Shown piece after piece: positions 3,974 to 10,310 of a stretch of DNA of 64,000 bases (the first letter of the stretch is position 1; each line of letters opens with the position of its first letter). Position numbers and translations under genes: made by a program. The DNA comes from Bacteroidota bacterium. Its GTDB lineage: Bacteria; Bacteroidota; Ignavibacteria; UBA10030; SZUA-254. The notes under the pieces are model-generated. The model made no database searches and was not told the DNA's origin. It saw only the letters and a list, made by a program, of their open reading frames with translations. The DNA lies in NCBI GenBank assembly GCA_036522515.1, contig DATDFQ010000056.1:62001-126000 (forward strand). Direction: 5' to 3'.

Positions 3974-4303
3974 TTACTTGACGCCGAGTTTTTTCTTCGC
4001 CTCTGGCGACATCATCGACGGCTCCCAGCGGGGTTCCCAGACGATCCGGACGTCGGCTTCGTGCACGCCCTCAAGCTTGAGCAACCGCTCCCGGATGTTG
4101 TTCGAGATCTGGGCTCCCATGCCGCAACCGGGCGTCGTCAGCGTCATTTTCACGCCGACCCAATCATCGATGATTTTCACATCGTAGATCAGTCCCAGTT
4201 CCACCACGCTGATCGGGATTTCGGGGTCGTAGCAGTCCTTGAGCGCCTCATACACCTGCGCTTCGCTCGTCGATTGTTGTTCGGTCGATTGTCGTTCATC
4301 CAT
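3974..4303 (-). CDS. MIP18/DUF59 family iron-sulfur cluster assembly protein
   Basis: The 109-residue protein carries the DUF59 (MIP18, SufT-like) signature. This includes 'ALKDCYDPEIPISVVELGLIYDV' (given here only as a landmark, about residues 20-42) and the reactive-cysteine motif TTPGCGMG (about residues 75-82). Family members help load Fe-S clusters onto client proteins. The length is normal. A candidate promoter at 4328-4356 gives it its own short leader. It sits just downstream (on the minus strand) of the iron operon that ends at 4461, so iron uptake and cluster assembly are neighbours, though separated by repeats. Confidence 0.88.
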   Translation of the reverse strand: MDERQSTEQQSTSEAQVYEALKDCYDPEIPISVVELGLIYDVKIIDDWVGVKMTLTTPGCGMGAQISNNIRERLLKLEGVHEADVRIVWEPRWEPSMMSPEAKKKLGVK

Positions 4304-4385: not shown

Positions 4386-4466
4386 GAGCCTAAAGCCCGC
4401 AGCCTAAAGGCTGCGGCTACCAAGTCCGAGGAATCGGTACCCGCAATCTGAAGGTTGCGGCTACAG
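4386..4466. repeat. Palindromic repeats (family A)
   Basis: There are two hairpin copies: CCGCAGCC-taaa-GGCTGCGG followed by 'ctacc', and a diverged CCGCAATC/GGTTGCGG copy that reaches the stop codon of the Rieske gene. They fill the gap between the iron operon and the MIP18 gene. Confidence 0.75.
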
Positions 4467-4880
4467 CAGGATGGTAAGGTTTGTTCCGTCGATGCGGGTC
4501 GCCAGCGCCCGGAGGGGTTTACTTGCGGGGCCGCGGGTTGCAGTGCCGTCCAATGCAAAGGTACTGCCGTGGACGCTGCAATAAAAGAGACTCCCGGTGT
4601 ACTCCAGCTCGTTGGAGGCATGGGTGCAACGAAGCACCAACGCTGTGAACGTGGCGTCGGGGAGCTTGCGAACGGCAATTTCAAAGCCAAGGTTCTTCGG
4701 ACGCACGATTTGAATCTCGCGGTCCTGAAACAGGGAGAGAGGCAACGAAATAGTCTTGTCTTTCGCGTCCGCCTCGATCGCGGGCACCGAGGCGCACGAT
4801 TCCAGCTCCGCGAATGTCATCGCCCCGCCGATTGCGACGCAGAGCATGCACGAAAGCCGCAGGAATTCCTTACGCTCCAT
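4461..4880 (-). CDS. Rieske [2Fe-2S] protein, last gene of the iron operon
   Basis: The product is 139 residues. The C-terminal half holds both Rieske boxes, C-T-H and C-S-V-H-G, spaced as in Rieske ferredoxins and the QcrA soluble domain. The N-terminus (MERKEFLRL...) has a hydrophobic stretch ending near 'AELESCAS', which could be a signal or anchor. A longer frame begins at 4901, but the ATG at 4880 has an AGGGTGGG ribosome site and lies 8 bases past the porin stop, so I prefer it. Rieske proteins carry single electrons at fairly high potential. In this operon a role in changing the redox state of iron in the periplasm is a reasonable inference but unproven. Confidence 0.8.
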   Translation of the reverse strand: MERKEFLRLSCMLCVAIGGAMTFAELESCASVPAIEADAKDKTISLPLSLFQDREIQIVRPKNLGFEIAVRKLPDATFTALVLRCTHASNELEYTGSLFYCSVHGSTFALDGTATRGPASKPLRALATRIDGTNLTILL

Positions 4881-4888
4881 CACCCACC

Positions 4889-6118
4889 CTAAAACGACCA
4901 CCCGATTCCGGCATTGACGAACGTAGTGCCCGACTCGGACGACGCGGCCGTATGAAAAAATCGGATATCCGCCTTCAGCGCAACGCTATTGACCGGCAGG
5001 TAGTTCAGTCCAACGATGACATGCTGCTGGTTCAGCCGCTCGTCGATCACCGCGTTCGAGGGGACCTTTGAATTCATATCCAGCTTCTCGTACCTGACGA
5101 AGCCGATGAGTTGCGCCCCCTTCATCCTGGAGGAGAGAAGATCATACCCAACCTCAAGGTAAGCCCCATACTCTGATTCTGCAGTGTTGTTGCCGTAGGC
5201 CCGATTGAGGGCGAAGGCGTCCGGTATCGAAACGAAGGTGCCAAGAGCCCTGAACGTAAATCCGTTCACGGAATATTGGAGATCCGCCTCGCCCAGACCG
5301 ACCGGCGTCCCGAAGAAGCCGGAGTTCAACTGCAGGGCGCTTGCGCTGTCGGAATTAACCCCCACGGTCCCGCCATAGTAACCCGAAACCTTCGCCCGCA
5401 GATCCCCCCGGTTCCACTGAAGCGAACCGGTGAGCGCCCCGTTGTTCGCCGTCGCAAGACGGCCCTCAAATCTTCCCTCACGAATGCCGCTTCCGTTCTC
5501 GAACGCCGCTCCCGACAACCCCGTGACGAGTCCGGCGCTGTATGTCAACGGCGTCCCGTTGATGCTTCCATAAAAACCGACACCGATCTCCCGCCACGTG
5601 GAGGGGATGATATAGGTCTCGACCTGTGTACGTTCATTGCCGTTAAATGAGGTCGGAAGATGATCCTCGTTCAAAATCCCGAGCGGAGGCAGAAACAATC
5701 CCGCCTTAAAATAGTTCATCGGGTCGAGACTGAACTTCACATAGGCCTGTTCGAATGCGACTTCGCCCCCCTCTTCCCCGCCTGTCACTTTCGCGTCTTC
5801 CACCTCGAGCTCACTGAAAAAAGAAATATCCGGGCTGAACCGGTGGCCCACGAACAGTACCACGCGCTCCAAATCGGCCGTGGCGGTCTGTGAAGCGGAA
5901 TTATGCTGGTAGAGAGCATTTCCGTATCCTCCGATGTCCGTGGAAGGCTCAAACCTCCAATTCGCATTGAGAGAATCTTCCGCCGTGCCCCCCGCCTTCT
6001 GTGCGTAAAGCGCACTTGTTGAACAAATGAGGAGCGATGAGAGGAGCAGTTGTTGCGCCGGGAACCGGGCTACCATCAGGGTGGAGATGAACGCGGTGAG
6101 CCTATTTTGAATCCTCAT
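4889..6118 (-). CDS. Outer-membrane porin-like beta-barrel protein
   Basis: The 409-residue product has a long N-terminal signal region ending at SALYAQ (about residue 40). Alternating strands follow, ending with 'TFVNAGIGWSF', a typical barrel-closing strand. The central blocks 'LPPLGILNEDHLPTSF' and 'IIPSTWREIGVGFYG' match the porin type seen in phosphate-selective-porin-like families. It overlaps the FTR1 gene by 17 bases and is followed within 8 bases by the Rieske gene, so it belongs to the same operon. Its likely job is to let iron or a small iron ligand cross the outer membrane. Confidence 0.75.
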   Translation of the reverse strand: MRIQNRLTAFISTLMVARFPAQQLLLSSLLICSTSALYAQKAGGTAEDSLNANWRFEPSTDIGGYGNALYQHNSASQTATADLERVVLFVGHRFSPDISFFSELEVEDAKVTGGEEGGEVAFEQAYVKFSLDPMNYFKAGLFLPPLGILNEDHLPTSFNGNERTQVETYIIPSTWREIGVGFYGSINGTPLTYSAGLVTGLSGAAFENGSGIREGRFEGRLATANNGALTGSLQWNRGDLRAKVSGYYGGTVGVNSDSASALQLNSGFFGTPVGLGEADLQYSVNGFTFRALGTFVSIPDAFALNRAYGNNTAESEYGAYLEVGYDLLSSRMKGAQLIGFVRYEKLDMNSKVPSNAVIDERLNQQHVIVGLNYLPVNSVALKADIRFFHTAASSESGTTFVNAGIGWSF

Positions 6119-7427
6119 TGATATCGAAATATTTTCGTTTGCTCTGGAGGTCGCTGAGCTTGATCTCGATATTCCCTCCGCTCAGGCGGGATGGGAGATA
6201 GATGGGTGCGCAGCCGTTTCCCTCCATCGATCCGCTGTTATTCTCGTCCGGTTCGGCCTCCCCGCGGGTGAGATGGAGTTTGCTGAGGGGGGAAGGGGCG
6301 TCGCATTGCGAACAGATCAACTCGCCGTTCTTCAGGTAGTACCGGCCGAAGCTGTAGCAGGCATAGCAGGCGTCAAAGGCGGTTGCGAACTTGCCGAAGC
6401 CCGTCCGGAGGACAAAAAAACGGATCGTCAGGCCCGCATCGGTGATGGAATATCGGTGGAGGTTATTATCGCTCACCTGGCTAACGGGGATTTCGATTAG
6501 CCCGGAGGCGGGAGTCGAAATTGTCTTCGCCGAGAGGTCCATTTCTGTGTTTGACGAAAAGATATCTCCCACGCCGAGGAAAAAGATGATGCAGATGGAG
6601 GCGACGCCCGCGCTCAACTGCCATCTTCGCGAACCCCGGGCCCTCCCGGGCAATGCGGGATCCCCGGCAGGAGGGATGCCGGCCGGCTGCTTGGCCGGTT
6701 TCCCCGGAATCAGGAGCATGATCGCCGGAATGCTCAGGATTGCGAGGATGAAGAGGATGTTGTTCTGGACGATCGGCCCCAGGAGCCCCATCATCTTCGG
6801 GTTGGCGGGGAACACCCCGTACTCGTAAAACTCGTGAAACGCGTTCACGATCAGCTGGACGGTGAAAATCAAAAGGGTGACGGCGGTGACCCGCAGGAAC
6901 CGGGTGATATTGATTCGCAGGCTCCCCCGGATGAAGAGGACGGCGAAGATGGCCGCCATCGCCAGGCCGATTACAGTCCCCCAGATGCTGCGCCACGCGC
7001 CCGTGCTTAACGCCACGGCCTGAAGGAAAATCGCCGTCTCGATTCCTTCCCGGACGATCATCAGGAAGGTGAAACTCAGGATGCTGGCGTGGGATTTCCA
7101 GGAGGTGGTCGACTCGACGATCGAGCTGATCCGGGCCTCGATTTCGCGTCGGATCTTCTTTGCGGTGAGCCACATCCAGGCGATCATGGAGATCACGAAG
7201 ACCGCCGCGGCGAGCATAAACCAGCCCTCCAGGGATTCCTGGTCGATCGCGAACTTCTGAAGAAGAACGGCGCCTCCGACACTCGCGAGGAGCGCGAGGA
7301 CAAGGCCGGTGTAGACCGAAGTCACGAGGGACGGCCTTTCGATCTTCCTCAGGTACACGATGAGGATCCCGAGGACGAGCGCGATCTCTATTCCTTCGCG
7401 CAGGGCGATGATCATCGATTCAATCAT
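6102..7427 (-). CDS. FTR1-family iron permease fused to a DUF2318 domain
   Basis: The 441-residue membrane protein has two REGIE motifs (R10-E14 and R126-E130), the paired iron-binding glutamate motifs of FTR1/EfeU permeases, spread over about seven hydrophobic segments up to roughly residue 260. After another hydrophobic segment (about 275-295) comes a DUF2318 domain with CYAC ... CSQC and a further Cys (about residues 350-410); this domain is found fused to FTR1 proteins. FTR1 permeases move ferric iron in step with its oxidation by a partner. No EfeO or EfeB homologue is nearby, but a Rieske protein is encoded two genes on. The gene lies 16 bases after the Fur-family gene. Confidence 0.9.
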   Translation of the reverse strand: MIESMIIALREGIEIALVLGILIVYLRKIERPSLVTSVYTGLVLALLASVGGAVLLQKFAIDQESLEGWFMLAAAVFVISMIAWMWLTAKKIRREIEARISSIVESTTSWKSHASILSFTFLMIVREGIETAIFLQAVALSTGAWRSIWGTVIGLAMAAIFAVLFIRGSLRINITRFLRVTAVTLLIFTVQLIVNAFHEFYEYGVFPANPKMMGLLGPIVQNNILFILAILSIPAIMLLIPGKPAKQPAGIPPAGDPALPGRARGSRRWQLSAGVASICIIFFLGVGDIFSSNTEMDLSAKTISTPASGLIEIPVSQVSDNNLHRYSITDAGLTIRFFVLRTGFGKFATAFDACYACYSFGRYYLKNGELICSQCDAPSPLSKLHLTRGEAEPDENNSGSMEGNGCAPIYLPSRLSGGNIEIKLSDLQSKRKYFDINEDSK

Positions 7428-7443
7428 TGGCGGTCACTTGATA

Positions 7444-7887
7444 TCATTTCTTTTTTGACTGGCAGGCCTGGCAGACGCCGAAAATCTGCAGGGTGGAGTT
7501 ATGGGGCTTGAATTTATGCTCGGAGCAGACTTCCTGCTGCAGCTTGTCCAATTTGTCGTTAACGAACTCAATGATGTCGCCGCATTCCAGGCAGATCAGA
7601 TGGTCGTGGCGTGGCCGCCCGAAGGCCTTTTCATACCGGGAGTGGTTTTCGCCGAAGCGGTACCTGGAAATCAAGCCGCAGTCGACAAGCAGGTCGAGTG
7701 TATTATAGACGGTGGCCCGGGAAACTTGCACCCCTTTTGCGTTGAGCTTTGCGAAAAGGTCGTCCGCGTCGAAGTGACCCCCTGTATGCATAATCTCATC
7801 GAGCAGGAGAAAGCGCTCGCGCGTCGGACGGAGCTTTTTCTCTTCGAGATATTGAATCAGGATGTCTTTTGCAGCCGAATCGTCCAC
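7444..7887 (-). CDS. Fur/PerR-family metal-responsive transcriptional repressor
   Basis: The 147-residue product has an N-terminal winged helix ('RPTRERFLLLDEI', 'VSRATVYNTLDLLVDCGLI') and a dimerisation domain. The latter carries HDHLICLEC and VCQACQ, the two CxxC pairs that hold the structural zinc. The His in HTGGHF and the HDH motif belong to the regulatory metal site. Whether it senses iron (Fur) or peroxide (PerR) cannot be decided from these residues. The start is GTG at 7887 with no clear ribosome site. It heads the FTR1-porin-Rieske operon, and a perfect 7-5-7 palindrome sits just upstream, which indicates autoregulation. Confidence 0.92.
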   Translation of the reverse strand: MDDSAAKDILIQYLEEKKLRPTRERFLLLDEIMHTGGHFDADDLFAKLNAKGVQVSRATVYNTLDLLVDCGLISRYRFGENHSRYEKAFGRPRHDHLICLECGDIIEFVNDKLDKLQQEVCSEHKFKPHNSTLQIFGVCQACQSKKK

Positions 7888-7900
7888 GGAGGAGGAGGGT

Positions 7901-7919
7901 ATTTAGAATTGGTCTAAAT
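7901..7919. promoter_or_regulatory. Palindromic operator for the Fur/PerR-family regulator
   Basis: ATTTAGAATTGGTCTAAAT is a perfect 7-base inverted repeat with a 5-base centre. It resembles PerR/Fur boxes (TTAnAAT-N-ATTnTAA type). It overlaps the -10 element and the predicted start of the operon promoter, the usual place for a repressor site. Confidence 0.7.
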
Positions 7920-7945
7920 ATAAACAATATCCCGAGTTGAGTCAA
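7917..7945 (-). promoter_or_regulatory. Promoter of the fur-FTR1-porin-Rieske operon
   Basis: On the minus strand: TTGACT (7945-7940), 17 bases, TATATT (7922-7917). Transcription should start near 7910, inside the palindrome, leaving a leader of about 23 bases. Confidence 0.6.
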
Positions 7946-8010
7946 GAAAAATCAACGGGGAGAGATGCTTGACCAGGTTCTCTGGATCTTGATTATGACC
8001 GATGTGAACA

Positions 8011-8182
8011 AACATAGCCTAAAGGCTGCGGCTACCAAACCCGAGGAATCGGTAGCCGCAAGCTTTAGCTTGCGGGTTTTTGATCGAGGAGCTGTGCCAT
8101 GCCGGGGAAAAGACCGCAGCCTAAAGGCTGCGGCTACCAAACCCGAGGCACCGGTAGGCGCGACCTTCAGGTCGCGTGACGG
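8011..8182. repeat. Cluster of family A palindromic repeats
   Basis: At least four hairpin copies (GCAGCC/GGCTGC, GCAAGC/GCTTGC, and a GCGACC/GGTCGC variant) alternate in orientation and are joined by 'accaaacccgaggaatcggtag'-like linkers. They fill most of the space between the divergent fur operon and the dehydrogenase gene. Open frames that cross this block consist only of repeat and are not genes. Confidence 0.8.
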
Positions 8183-8224
8183 TGAGACAGCGAAATTCAG
8201 CGGGTATAGCTTGGGAGCCAATGT

Positions 8225-8253
8225 TTGATCCGATCTGAGGAATCTTGTACATT
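8225..8253 (+). promoter_or_regulatory. Candidate promoter of the dehydrogenase gene
   Basis: TTGATC (8225-8230), 17 bases, TACATT (8248-8253). The predicted leader is about 25 bases. Confidence 0.5.
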
Positions 8254-8284
8254 CAATAGTTTTTTCACTATTCGCGGGGATTTG

Positions 8285-9043
8285 ATGCTCGATTTCAAGG
8301 ATCGGATTGCGGTGGTTACGGGCGGCTCAAGGGGTATCGGCGCTGCCGCCTCCATTTTGCTGGCGAAGGCGGGCGCCAATGTGGCGGTGCTCTATGCCGC
8401 AGACAGGGCCGCGGCGGTAAGCACCTGCAGAAAGATTCAGGCGCTTGGAAGATCCGCCGAACCTTTTCGCTGCAGAGTGCAGAATTATCAGGAATGCAAG
8501 GCTGTCATCTCGTCGATCCTGAAGAAGTTCGGCCACATCGATATTCTCGTCAATAGCGCAGGTATTTGGGAAGAGGGGAAGATCGGATCTATGTCACCGG
8601 CCCATTGGAGCAGGACGATCGCGATAAACCTTACAGGCACCTTCAACATGTGCGATTTGATAGTTCCAAAGATGAAAGCGAGGCAATTTGGCCGTATTAT
8701 CAATCTCTCGAGCACGGCCGGACAGAGAGGGGAGGCTGATCATTCTGCCTATGCCGCTTCCAAAGGAGGGATTATCTCTTTCACGAAGTCGATCGCGGTG
8801 GAACTCATTCCATTTGGAATTAGAGCCAATTGCGTAGCCCCGGGGTGGGTGCGGACTGACATGGTGTCGCATGTGATGCGTTCAAAGAAGCAGGAAGGAG
8901 CAATCCTCAACACGATCCCGCGAGGAAGGATAGGAACCCCCGGCGAGGTGGCTGGATCCATCCTTTTTTTGGCATCCGGATTAGCCGAGCATGTCGTTGG
9001 GGAAGTCATCAACGTCAACGGAGGTAGCGTTCTGTGCGGATAA
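8285..9043 (+). CDS. Short-chain dehydrogenase/reductase (FabG-like)
   Basis: The 252-residue classical SDR has the NAD(P) loop TGGSRGIG near the N-terminus, NSAG (usually NNAG) in the middle, the catalytic Ser in 'INLSSTAG' and YAASK as the Tyr-x3-Lys pair. The C-terminus 'VVGEVINVNGG' is typical of FabG-like 3-oxoacyl reductases. The frame is open from 8225, but the ATG at 8285 has a GGGGA ribosome site and starts exactly at the usual family N-terminus. The substrate cannot be fixed: fatty-acid synthesis or another keto group reduction is possible. Confidence 0.88.
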   Translation: MLDFKDRIAVVTGGSRGIGAAASILLAKAGANVAVLYAADRAAAVSTCRKIQALGRSAEPFRCRVQNYQECKAVISSILKKFGHIDILVNSAGIWEEGKIGSMSPAHWSRTIAINLTGTFNMCDLIVPKMKARQFGRIINLSSTAGQRGEADHSAYAASKGGIISFTKSIAVELIPFGIRANCVAPGWVRTDMVSHVMRSKKQEGAILNTIPRGRIGTPGEVAGSILFLASGLAEHVVGEVINVNGGSVLCG

Positions 9044-9115
9044 AAGGCTCAAAATCCATTGATTTCAGAACCTTTCCCAATACCTGCAAATTCTTTGATT
9101 TTTGAAAGATTTTAC

Positions 9116-9143
9116 TTGTTTAATTCTTCGAATTTTGTATATT
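9116..9143 (+). promoter_or_regulatory. Candidate promoter of the deoxyhypusine-synthase-like gene
   Basis: TTGTTT (9116-9121), 16 bases, TATATT (9138-9143) followed by TG. The string TATATTTG is an exact match to the Bacteroidota -7 pattern TAnnTTTG. Confidence 0.55.
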
Positions 9144-9188
9144 TGAGCCATAAAATTGAGAAGCTTTGATTTCACATCGGAAAACTGA

Positions 9189-10310
9189 TTGGCTGAGAAC
9201 AAGAAAAACGACCTCAAAGGAAAACGAATTGTACCGAGACCAATACCCAAGGATGCCAGGGTGAGTGATCTCGTGGATAATTATTATCAAGCATATAACG
9301 CCGGTAGAATCCGCGAAGCATGCCATCTTATGGTGGAAAAGATACTTGCGCGTGATTCCACGGTCGGAATGAGCATTACAGGTGCGCTTACCCCTGCCGG
9401 TTTGGGCGGTTCTTGCATAGTCCCCTTGATGAAGGCGGGGTTTGTCGATTGGGTGGTCAGTACTGGTGCGAATCTCTACCACGACACGCATTTTGCAATC
9501 GGGCATTCACTCCATCGCGGTTCCCCGTTTGCGGATGACCGGTTGCTCAGAAAGAAGGGTATCATCCGTATTTATGACGTAGTTTTTGACTATGACGTCC
9601 TTCTTTCGACAGATGCCTTTTTCCGCCGTCTTTTCAGGTTGCCGGAGTTTCAACGGGAGATGGGAACAGCGGAACTGCACAACCGTCTCGGGAAGTATGT
9701 AGCTGAGCGCGAGCGGCTGGCAAGGGTCAAAAACAGCAGTATTTTGGCGACGGCCTACAAGTGCGGGATCCCGATCTATACCTCTTCACCCGGGGATAGC
9801 TCCATCGGGATGAATATTGCGGAAGTTGCCCTCGACGGGTACAAGATCAAGCTGAACGTCCTCCTCGATGTCAACGAGTCGGCGGCGATCGTGCTTTCAG
9901 CGAAGCGGCAAGGCGGCAAGAGCGGGGTTGTCATCCTGGGAGGGGGCTCTCCCAAGAACTTCGTTCTGCAGACTGAACCCCAGATACAGGAGGTGCTCGG
10001 CATAAAGGAGAAGGGGCACGACTATTATCTGCAAATAACGGACGCTCGTCCCGATACGGGCGGGCTTTCCGGCGCAACTCCGGGAGAGGCAGTCACGTGG
10101 GGGAAGGTCGACCCCGATAAGCTGAGGGATACCGTCGTGGCCTATGTGGACTCGACGATAGCGGTTCCGATCATGACATCGTACGTCCTGGCCAAAGTGA
10201 GGCCGCGGCGCCTCAGGCGGCTGTACGACAGGCGGGAAGAACTGATGCGGGGCTTGCACAGTGAGTATCTTAAATCCAAGAAGCAAAGATCAAAGTCCAG
10301 ATATAAATAA
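9189..10310 (+). CDS. Deoxyhypusine synthase family protein
   Basis: The 373-residue protein has the fold signatures of deoxyhypusine synthase: '[13 protein letters not shown]', 'STGANLYHD', '[15 protein letters not shown]' and 'GGGSPKNF'. Near the C-terminus TWGKV places K306 at the position of the active-site lysine of the human enzyme (WGKI). Eukaryotic and archaeal enzymes use spermidine and NAD to modify eIF5A, which bacteria lack; bacterial homologues may instead make homospermidine-like polyamines or modify another acceptor. The start is TTG at 9189, with no better ATG upstream. A histone-like gene follows 73 bases later. Confidence 0.88.

Follow-up and report, generated by a model that had tools for sequence, protein, structure and literature searches.

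A probable Fur-controlled iron-import operon combining an FTR1-FtrD permease with a porin-Rieske cassette in an Ignavibacteria genome

A compact operon encoding a Fur-type regulator, an FTR1 permease fused to an FtrD domain, a porin-like outer-membrane barrel and a Rieske [2Fe-2S] lipoprotein was found on the minus strand (7945-4461) of a 64,000-nucleotide stretch of an Ignavibacteria genome, hereafter the window. We consider it probable that the operon imports iron under Fur control and is put together from exchangeable modules, with the Rieske protein reducing iron and FTR1-FtrD importing it in the ferrous state. The reading is built on gene content, operon structure, a conserved palindrome and two exchanges at one locus, all established by comparison of sequences. 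The exact quartet appears unique so far and to have been assembled from modules that recur and are exchanged, namely Fur with a transporter and a porin with a redox cassette.

The genes follow each other in the order fur, FTR1-FtrD, barrel and Rieske, with a single promoter upstream of all four. They lie where a sequence-only reading of the window had placed them and are as tightly spaced as it claimed: a 16-base gap separates fur and FTR1, the FTR1 and porin genes overlap by 17 bases, and the porin and Rieske genes overlap by 13 bases if the latter starts at the GTG at 4901 or leave an 8-base gap if it starts at the ATG at 4880. The promoter is sigma-70-like (7917..7945, minus strand; TTGACT-17-TATATT; 10/12 consensus positions, one consensus match). 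Directly after the operon lies a FeS_assembly_P (SufT/MIP18-like) gene (3974..4303, minus strand), which is conserved in this place in relatives and is probably a separate unit. On the other side, the locus is anchored by a divergent, conserved short-chain dehydrogenase (SDR) gene (8225..9043, plus strand) and by a second conserved gene, homospermidine-synthase-like and of the DS family (9189..10310, plus strand). In much of the order, this DS-family gene keeps its place next to the iron locus. A 21-bp intergenic element, GCCTAAAGGCTGCGGCTACCA, was also observed in seven copies in the window when up to three mismatches were allowed (positions 576, 619, 4402, 8017, 8119, 22333 and 40103, thus on both sides of the operon), with 0 copies expected from shuffles.

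The regulator (7444..7887, minus strand; Pfam PF01475, E 1.2e-30) is the only member of the Fur family that the genome encodes. Among solved structures, the Fur of C. jejuni comes closest to it, and it scores below the NCBIfam equivalog cut-offs. Fur is separated from peroxide-sensing PerR by the residue at the position of PerR Asp104, and the window protein has Glu there, on which ground a PerR identity was rejected. A 19-bp palindrome, ATTTAGACCAATTCTAAAT (7901..7919; ATTTAGA-N5-TCTAAAT), overlaps the -10 element, runs on directly downstream of it and is a probable Fur operator. Its core, TTTAGA-N5-TCTAAA, is present in exactly one copy in the 3.5-Mb genome, at the operon promoter. Perfect or slightly altered palindromes are found 5' of fur in nearly all relatives at the locus, many of them in the form ATTTAGACTAATTCTAAAT, and the combined arrangement of promoter and palindrome precedes fur in most related loci; the exceptions are L013, where the palindrome is missing, and L254 and L264, where it is degenerate. 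Fur is the likely ligand of the palindrome at its own promoter. Two more distant FTR1-FtrD loci without a fur gene (L017 and L028) have near-canonical Fur boxes, TGATAGTCATTATCA or TGATATTCATTATCA, in front of FTR1-FtrD. The same two promoters contain an extra palindrome, CCGACTAAATTAGTCGG (GACTAAATTAGTC in L028), which resembles IscR/Rrf2-type sites.

The second gene (6102..7427, minus strand; PF03239, E 1.3e-29; PF10080, E 9.8e-18) encodes an FTR1 permease with both REGIE motifs and a C-terminal DUF2318 tail, as had been read from the sequence; the tail corresponds to Pfam PF10080, now FtrD-like. The FTR1 domain scored 103.8 bits against a Pfam cut-off of 25.3, and the protein scored 130 bits against the cut-off of 255 for the NCBIfam EfeU equivalog. 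In the predicted fold (AlphaFold, pLDDT 55, low confidence), seven membrane helices are followed by an eighth and this by a beta-rich domain. The Pfam match, the REGIE motifs and the seven helices of this low-confidence model identify the protein as an FTR1/EfeU-type iron permease. The FtrD/DUF2318 domain is likewise identified by its Pfam match together with the cysteine pattern CxxC, CxxC, C (C354, C357, C372, C375 and C406), which is invariant in 9 homologues. It is predicted to face the periplasm because Lys and Arg abound in the loop that leads into the eighth helix. No solved structure matching the FTR1-FtrD profile by sequence was found, and a profile scan of contigs returned close Ignavibacteria relatives along with remote FTR1s from archaea and a small number of FtrD-like proteins from Nitrospirae. 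Among the scanned genes beside the operon there was no P19 gene, as a P19 (FetMP) system would have, and neither EfeO/imelysin nor EfeB, as EfeUOB would have. The window genome encodes another FtrD-like protein, which begins with a zinc ribbon, at L019 (8352-9080, minus strand; contig C43). Its gene adjoins one for an HMA-domain protein, and apparent metal efflux genes of the RND and P-type kinds are close by; FtrD of this stand-alone type is also present in L020, L021 and L022.

Comparison of the locus between genomes revealed two exchanges. In other genomes of the order, the neighbourhood of the SDR and DS-family genes holds Fur-FeoA-FeoB (e.g. L223, L252, L253, L255 and L257) or, in L259 and L260, FeoB without fur. 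Fur-FTR1-FtrD occupies the locus in the window, L013, L014 and L015, and is also found in L016, where the contig ends before the anchors; FTR1-FtrD without fur is found in L017, L018, L028 and L030. None of the loci compared holds both FeoB and FTR1-FtrD. The FeoB profile also matches other proteins, among them YchF (364-382 aa) and further GTPases, and only proteins longer than about 600 aa and split FeoB halves were counted as FeoB. So defined, FeoB is absent from the entire window genome (99.9% complete) and likewise from G001, G009 and G011, which carry FTR1-FtrD. FTR1-FtrD together with FeoB of another type elsewhere in the genome was seen in G005, G040, G055 and G272.

The other exchange concerns the genes downstream of the permease. 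A cassette of porin, FMN_bind, a membrane protein of ~170 aa and ApbE follows either permease in several loci, FTR1-FtrD in L014 and L015 and FeoB in L223, L259 and L260; in L253 the cassette accompanies FeoB and no ApbE was called. In the window, porin-Rieske fills the slot of the FMN_bind/ApbE cassette, and the Rieske protein does occupy the place of the other redox partners of FTR1 systems, as proposed beforehand. No FMN_bind protein was found anywhere in the window genome, and the operon is thus distinct from a flavinylated iron-reduction module. Judged by gene content, FTR1-FtrD replaces FeoAB and porin-Rieske replaces the porin/FMN_bind/membrane protein/ApbE cassette at one and the same locus. 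The comparison with relatives favours the iron reading of the operon, a conclusion we regard as well supported at the sequence level, and with it upholds the earlier suggestion of a Fur-controlled unit for iron uptake.

Other arrangements were observed as well. L013, from the same genus as the window, has Fur-FTR1-FtrD with neither porin nor Rieske, and in L016 a TonB-dependent receptor (7226-9400, minus strand) takes the place of the porin after Fur-FTR1-FtrD. The ~170-aa membrane protein encoded between FMN_bind and ApbE (L014:6549-7082, minus strand; L223:7838-8329; L225:5232-5735) has no real Pfam match. It has a conserved His-rich stretch, HNHxLSLS, and may act as a small b-type cytochrome that supplies the flavin protein with electrons.

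The third gene of the operon (4889..6118, minus strand) was tentatively assigned to a porin-like outer-membrane beta-barrel on the basis of a weak match to Porin_O_P, the strand pattern and the porin tree. Against Pfam Porin_O_P the window barrel scored 15.9 bits, below the cut-off of 20.9, and the barrel of its closest relative, L086, scored 24.3 bits, above it. The strand pattern is seen in the barrel model (AlphaFold, pLDDT 42, low confidence). A secreted protein of 250-271 aa adjoins the porin-Rieske module in L086 (6531-7346, minus strand) and L087 (6093-6842, minus strand), so that it accompanies the module both where FTR1 is the importer and where FeoB is; the L086 copy has no Pfam match.

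The Rieske gene (4461..4880, minus strand, longest frame from 4901; PF00355, E 8.8e-07) likely starts at the ATG at 4880 (MERKEFL), because relatives share the conserved start MxRKEFL. Both CxH/CxxH boxes reported from the sequence are present (CTHASN...CSVHGS), and the protein is without the two additional Cys found in Rieske proteins of the bc1 type; it scores below the NCBIfam equivalog cut-offs. In the lipobox of the Rieske relatives, Leu at -3 and the Cys are invariant. The lipobox and the residue after its Cys, which is not Asp, suggest a lipoprotein of the outer membrane that faces the periplasm. A respiratory Rieske protein was considered and rejected: the window copy has neither the disulphide cysteines (CTHxxC/CPCH) nor the cytochrome b neighbour of a bc1/b6f Rieske, and the genome has two further Rieske genes, both with a cytochrome b gene directly after them. 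Such disulphide cysteines raise the potential of bc1-type Rieske clusters. They are carried by many of the DHOR-linked Rieske relatives described below, and cluster potentials may differ within the group.

The porin tree split three ways. Porins with FMN_bind behind them formed one group, porins with DHOR-Rieske in front of them a second, and porins with a Rieske behind them a small third. The window porin belongs to the last (support 100/99). Its neighbours there are the porin of G047, a genome of the same order (59% identity in the aligned columns), and those of L220-L222 and L224, which represent two further families of the phylum; its own family's porins at the same locus (L014, L015 and L223) lie apart from it. 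The Rieske tree agrees in grouping the window, L086 and L220-L222 (support 99), the placement of L224 not being resolved in that tree. Downstream of porin-Rieske, G047 has an FTR1 permease of a different kind, and L220, L222 and L224 have imelysin and DHOR, a di-haem protein. Because its porin and Rieske group with those of other genomes and apart from the porins of its sisters, the window operon looks chimeric, as if a porin-Rieske cassette from elsewhere had been attached to the Fur promoter and FTR1-FtrD native to the locus.

The porin-Rieske pair itself recurs. For 43 of the 96 Rieske genes in annotated loci, a porin was the same-strand neighbour at no more than 51 bases, these and the following figures being shares rather than rates, from a Bacteroidota-only census with profile-first gene calling and a sample biased towards relatives of the query. 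So many close pairs argue that the adjacency is not due to chance; with a few Rieske genes among ~3000, we estimate that chance would make porin and Rieske neighbours at well under one locus in a hundred. Beside the 43 pairs were DHOR (40), FeoB (8), Nramp (5), imelysin (3) and FTR1 (2). The usual order is DHOR-Rieske-porin, and porin-Rieske-imelysin-DHOR (3) and porin-Rieske-FTR1 (2) are rarer; DtxR-type iron-dependent repressors lie near many of these loci. No iron gene was called next to most of the Rieske relatives that lack an adjoining porin, as would fit an iron link specific to the porin-paired group. The sequence-only reading had treated the combination as one regulated unit. Porin-Rieske does recur by iron transporters in distant families, but Fur-FTR1-FtrD-porin-Rieske was found in one genome only, and no second locus with exactly the four genes was found.

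The following mechanism is proposed. When iron is sufficient, Fur would repress the operon via the palindrome at its own promoter. The barrel would let iron across the outer membrane, and the Rieske lipoprotein, anchored beside it and facing the periplasm, would hold iron in the ferrous state or bring it there (Fe3+ to Fe2+) where it leaves the barrel. FtrD, on the periplasmic side, would then help to hand the iron to the fused FTR1 permease, which would move it across the inner membrane. We infer that iron is the cargo, that Fur binds the palindrome, that electrons flow towards the iron and that a protein donor reduces the Rieske cluster. Four observations suggest that the Rieske reduces iron in the periplasm and that FTR1-FtrD imports ferrous iron: FTR1-FtrD substitutes for FeoB at the locus, the porin-Rieske pair is also linked to FeoB and Nramp, the pair replaces an FMN_bind/ApbE module of a type linked to iron reduction (PMC8238504), and the disulphide cysteines of bc1-type clusters are absent. 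Several points count against the proposal: FTR1 permeases elsewhere are usually thought to be paired with an oxidase, which is the opposite redox direction; the operon encodes no electron donor for the Rieske, the membrane protein of the sisters being absent; many DHOR-linked Rieske relatives do carry the disulphide cysteines; the exact quartet is known from one genome; and the porin assignment is weak. On a broader and more tentative level, with the chances slightly against it, porin-paired Rieske lipoproteins may constitute a third class of periplasmic electron-transfer partner for iron importers beside the flavinylated and thioredoxin-like ones, widespread in Bacteroidota, serving FeoB, Nramp and FTR1 and exchanged as a cassette.

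The redox direction could also be reversed, with the Rieske (and DHOR in relatives) taking electrons from Fe2+ and FTR1 receiving Fe3+ in the style of Fet3-Ftr1. The family of the permease, the annotation of DHOR as a haem peroxidase encoded beside imelysin in iron-linked relatives, and the precedent of EfeUOB (PMC3143127) speak for such oxidation. We nevertheless regard it as unlikely, given that the Rieske-porin module also lies by the divalent-metal importers FeoB and Nramp, that sister genomes hold FeoAB at the locus, that the window Rieske lacks the cysteines of the high-potential bc1-type proteins, and that DHOR was not found in the window genome. Still less likely is a role of Rieske-DHOR-porin in defence against peroxide or redox stress, the module travelling with metal importers and the porin importing something else. 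The putative peroxidase DHOR and neighbours such as Nramp and DtxR, which would suit a manganese/peroxide response, fit this explanation; the Fur-type Glu in place of the PerR-type Asp, the absence of DHOR from G047 as well as from the window genome, and the additional association of the pair with FTR1, FeoB and imelysin do not. That the barrel and the Rieske form an electron conduit to the outside, for extracellular reduction or oxidation, and lie in the operon by chance seems very improbable: porin-like barrels paired with redox proteins are known in such conduits and a multihaem cytochrome is encoded elsewhere in the window genome, but such a cytochrome was seen in none of these operons, and the linkage to metal importers and iron regulators is repeated. 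Least credible of all is a Rieske gene that is an unrelated neighbour, be it a bc-complex subunit or a separate transcript, since against the single occurrence of the exact quartet stand the cytochrome b genes behind the genome's two other Rieske genes, the overlap or 8-base spacing of porin and Rieske, and the one phylogenetic history that the two share.

The import operon with a reducing Rieske, if correctly read, bears on how Gram-negative FTR1-type importers without an oxidase handle the redox state of iron. The locus resembles a natural substitution experiment, FeoAB being exchanged for FTR1-FtrD and a flavin module for a Rieske, which suggests that the jobs are interchangeable and that FTR1-FtrD may stand in for a ferrous importer. 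It also suggests what the many Bacteroidota clusters of the DHOR-Rieske-porin type may do; their Rieske is easily read as part of respiratory complex III. This may have happened in Bizionia argentinensis, where Rieske and cytochrome c genes with consecutive locus tags are activated together with iron-uptake genes by the iron regulator MliR; deletion of MliR lowers the pair along with the iron-uptake genes, and the authors assigned the pair to respiration (PMC9478572). The pair is a candidate independent lead for an iron-linked Rieske. In the open-access literature, we found no paper naming a Rieske protein or a porin as part of such iron systems.

Several known systems share parts with the operon. 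The FTR1/P19 clusters of the Campylobacter Cj1658-1665 type, to which DUF2318 has already been tied (PMC6083913), likewise combine FTR1 with DUF2318/FtrD and periplasmic redox partners that vary between lineages. Unlike in these clusters, FtrD is fused to FTR1 in the window, a porin is included, a Rieske lipoprotein is the putative redox partner, and P19, ABC and thioredoxin genes are not beside the operon. FeoAB under Fur has the same locus, upstream fur with palindrome and downstream cassette types in sister genomes, whereas the permease of the window is FTR1-FtrD and its genome is without FeoB. Flavinylation (FMN_bind/ApbE) modules fill the slot after a related porin in the sisters, where the window has a Rieske in a genome without FMN_bind protein. 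The EfeUOB and imelysin/DHOR systems, of which DHOR and imelysin are known from iron-uptake contexts (PMC3143127), also have an FTR1 permease, and relatives of the window pair directly precede imelysin and DHOR genes; in the window, by contrast, imelysin/EfeO or EfeB is not beside the operon and DHOR is absent from the genome. The novelty claimed at first for the combination therefore narrows to one component: FTR1 clusters with interchangeable periplasmic partners have been described, FMN-binding in many Gram-positives and thioredoxin-like in many Gram-negatives (PMC8238504), and what is new here is the Rieske protein as a putative third type of partner.
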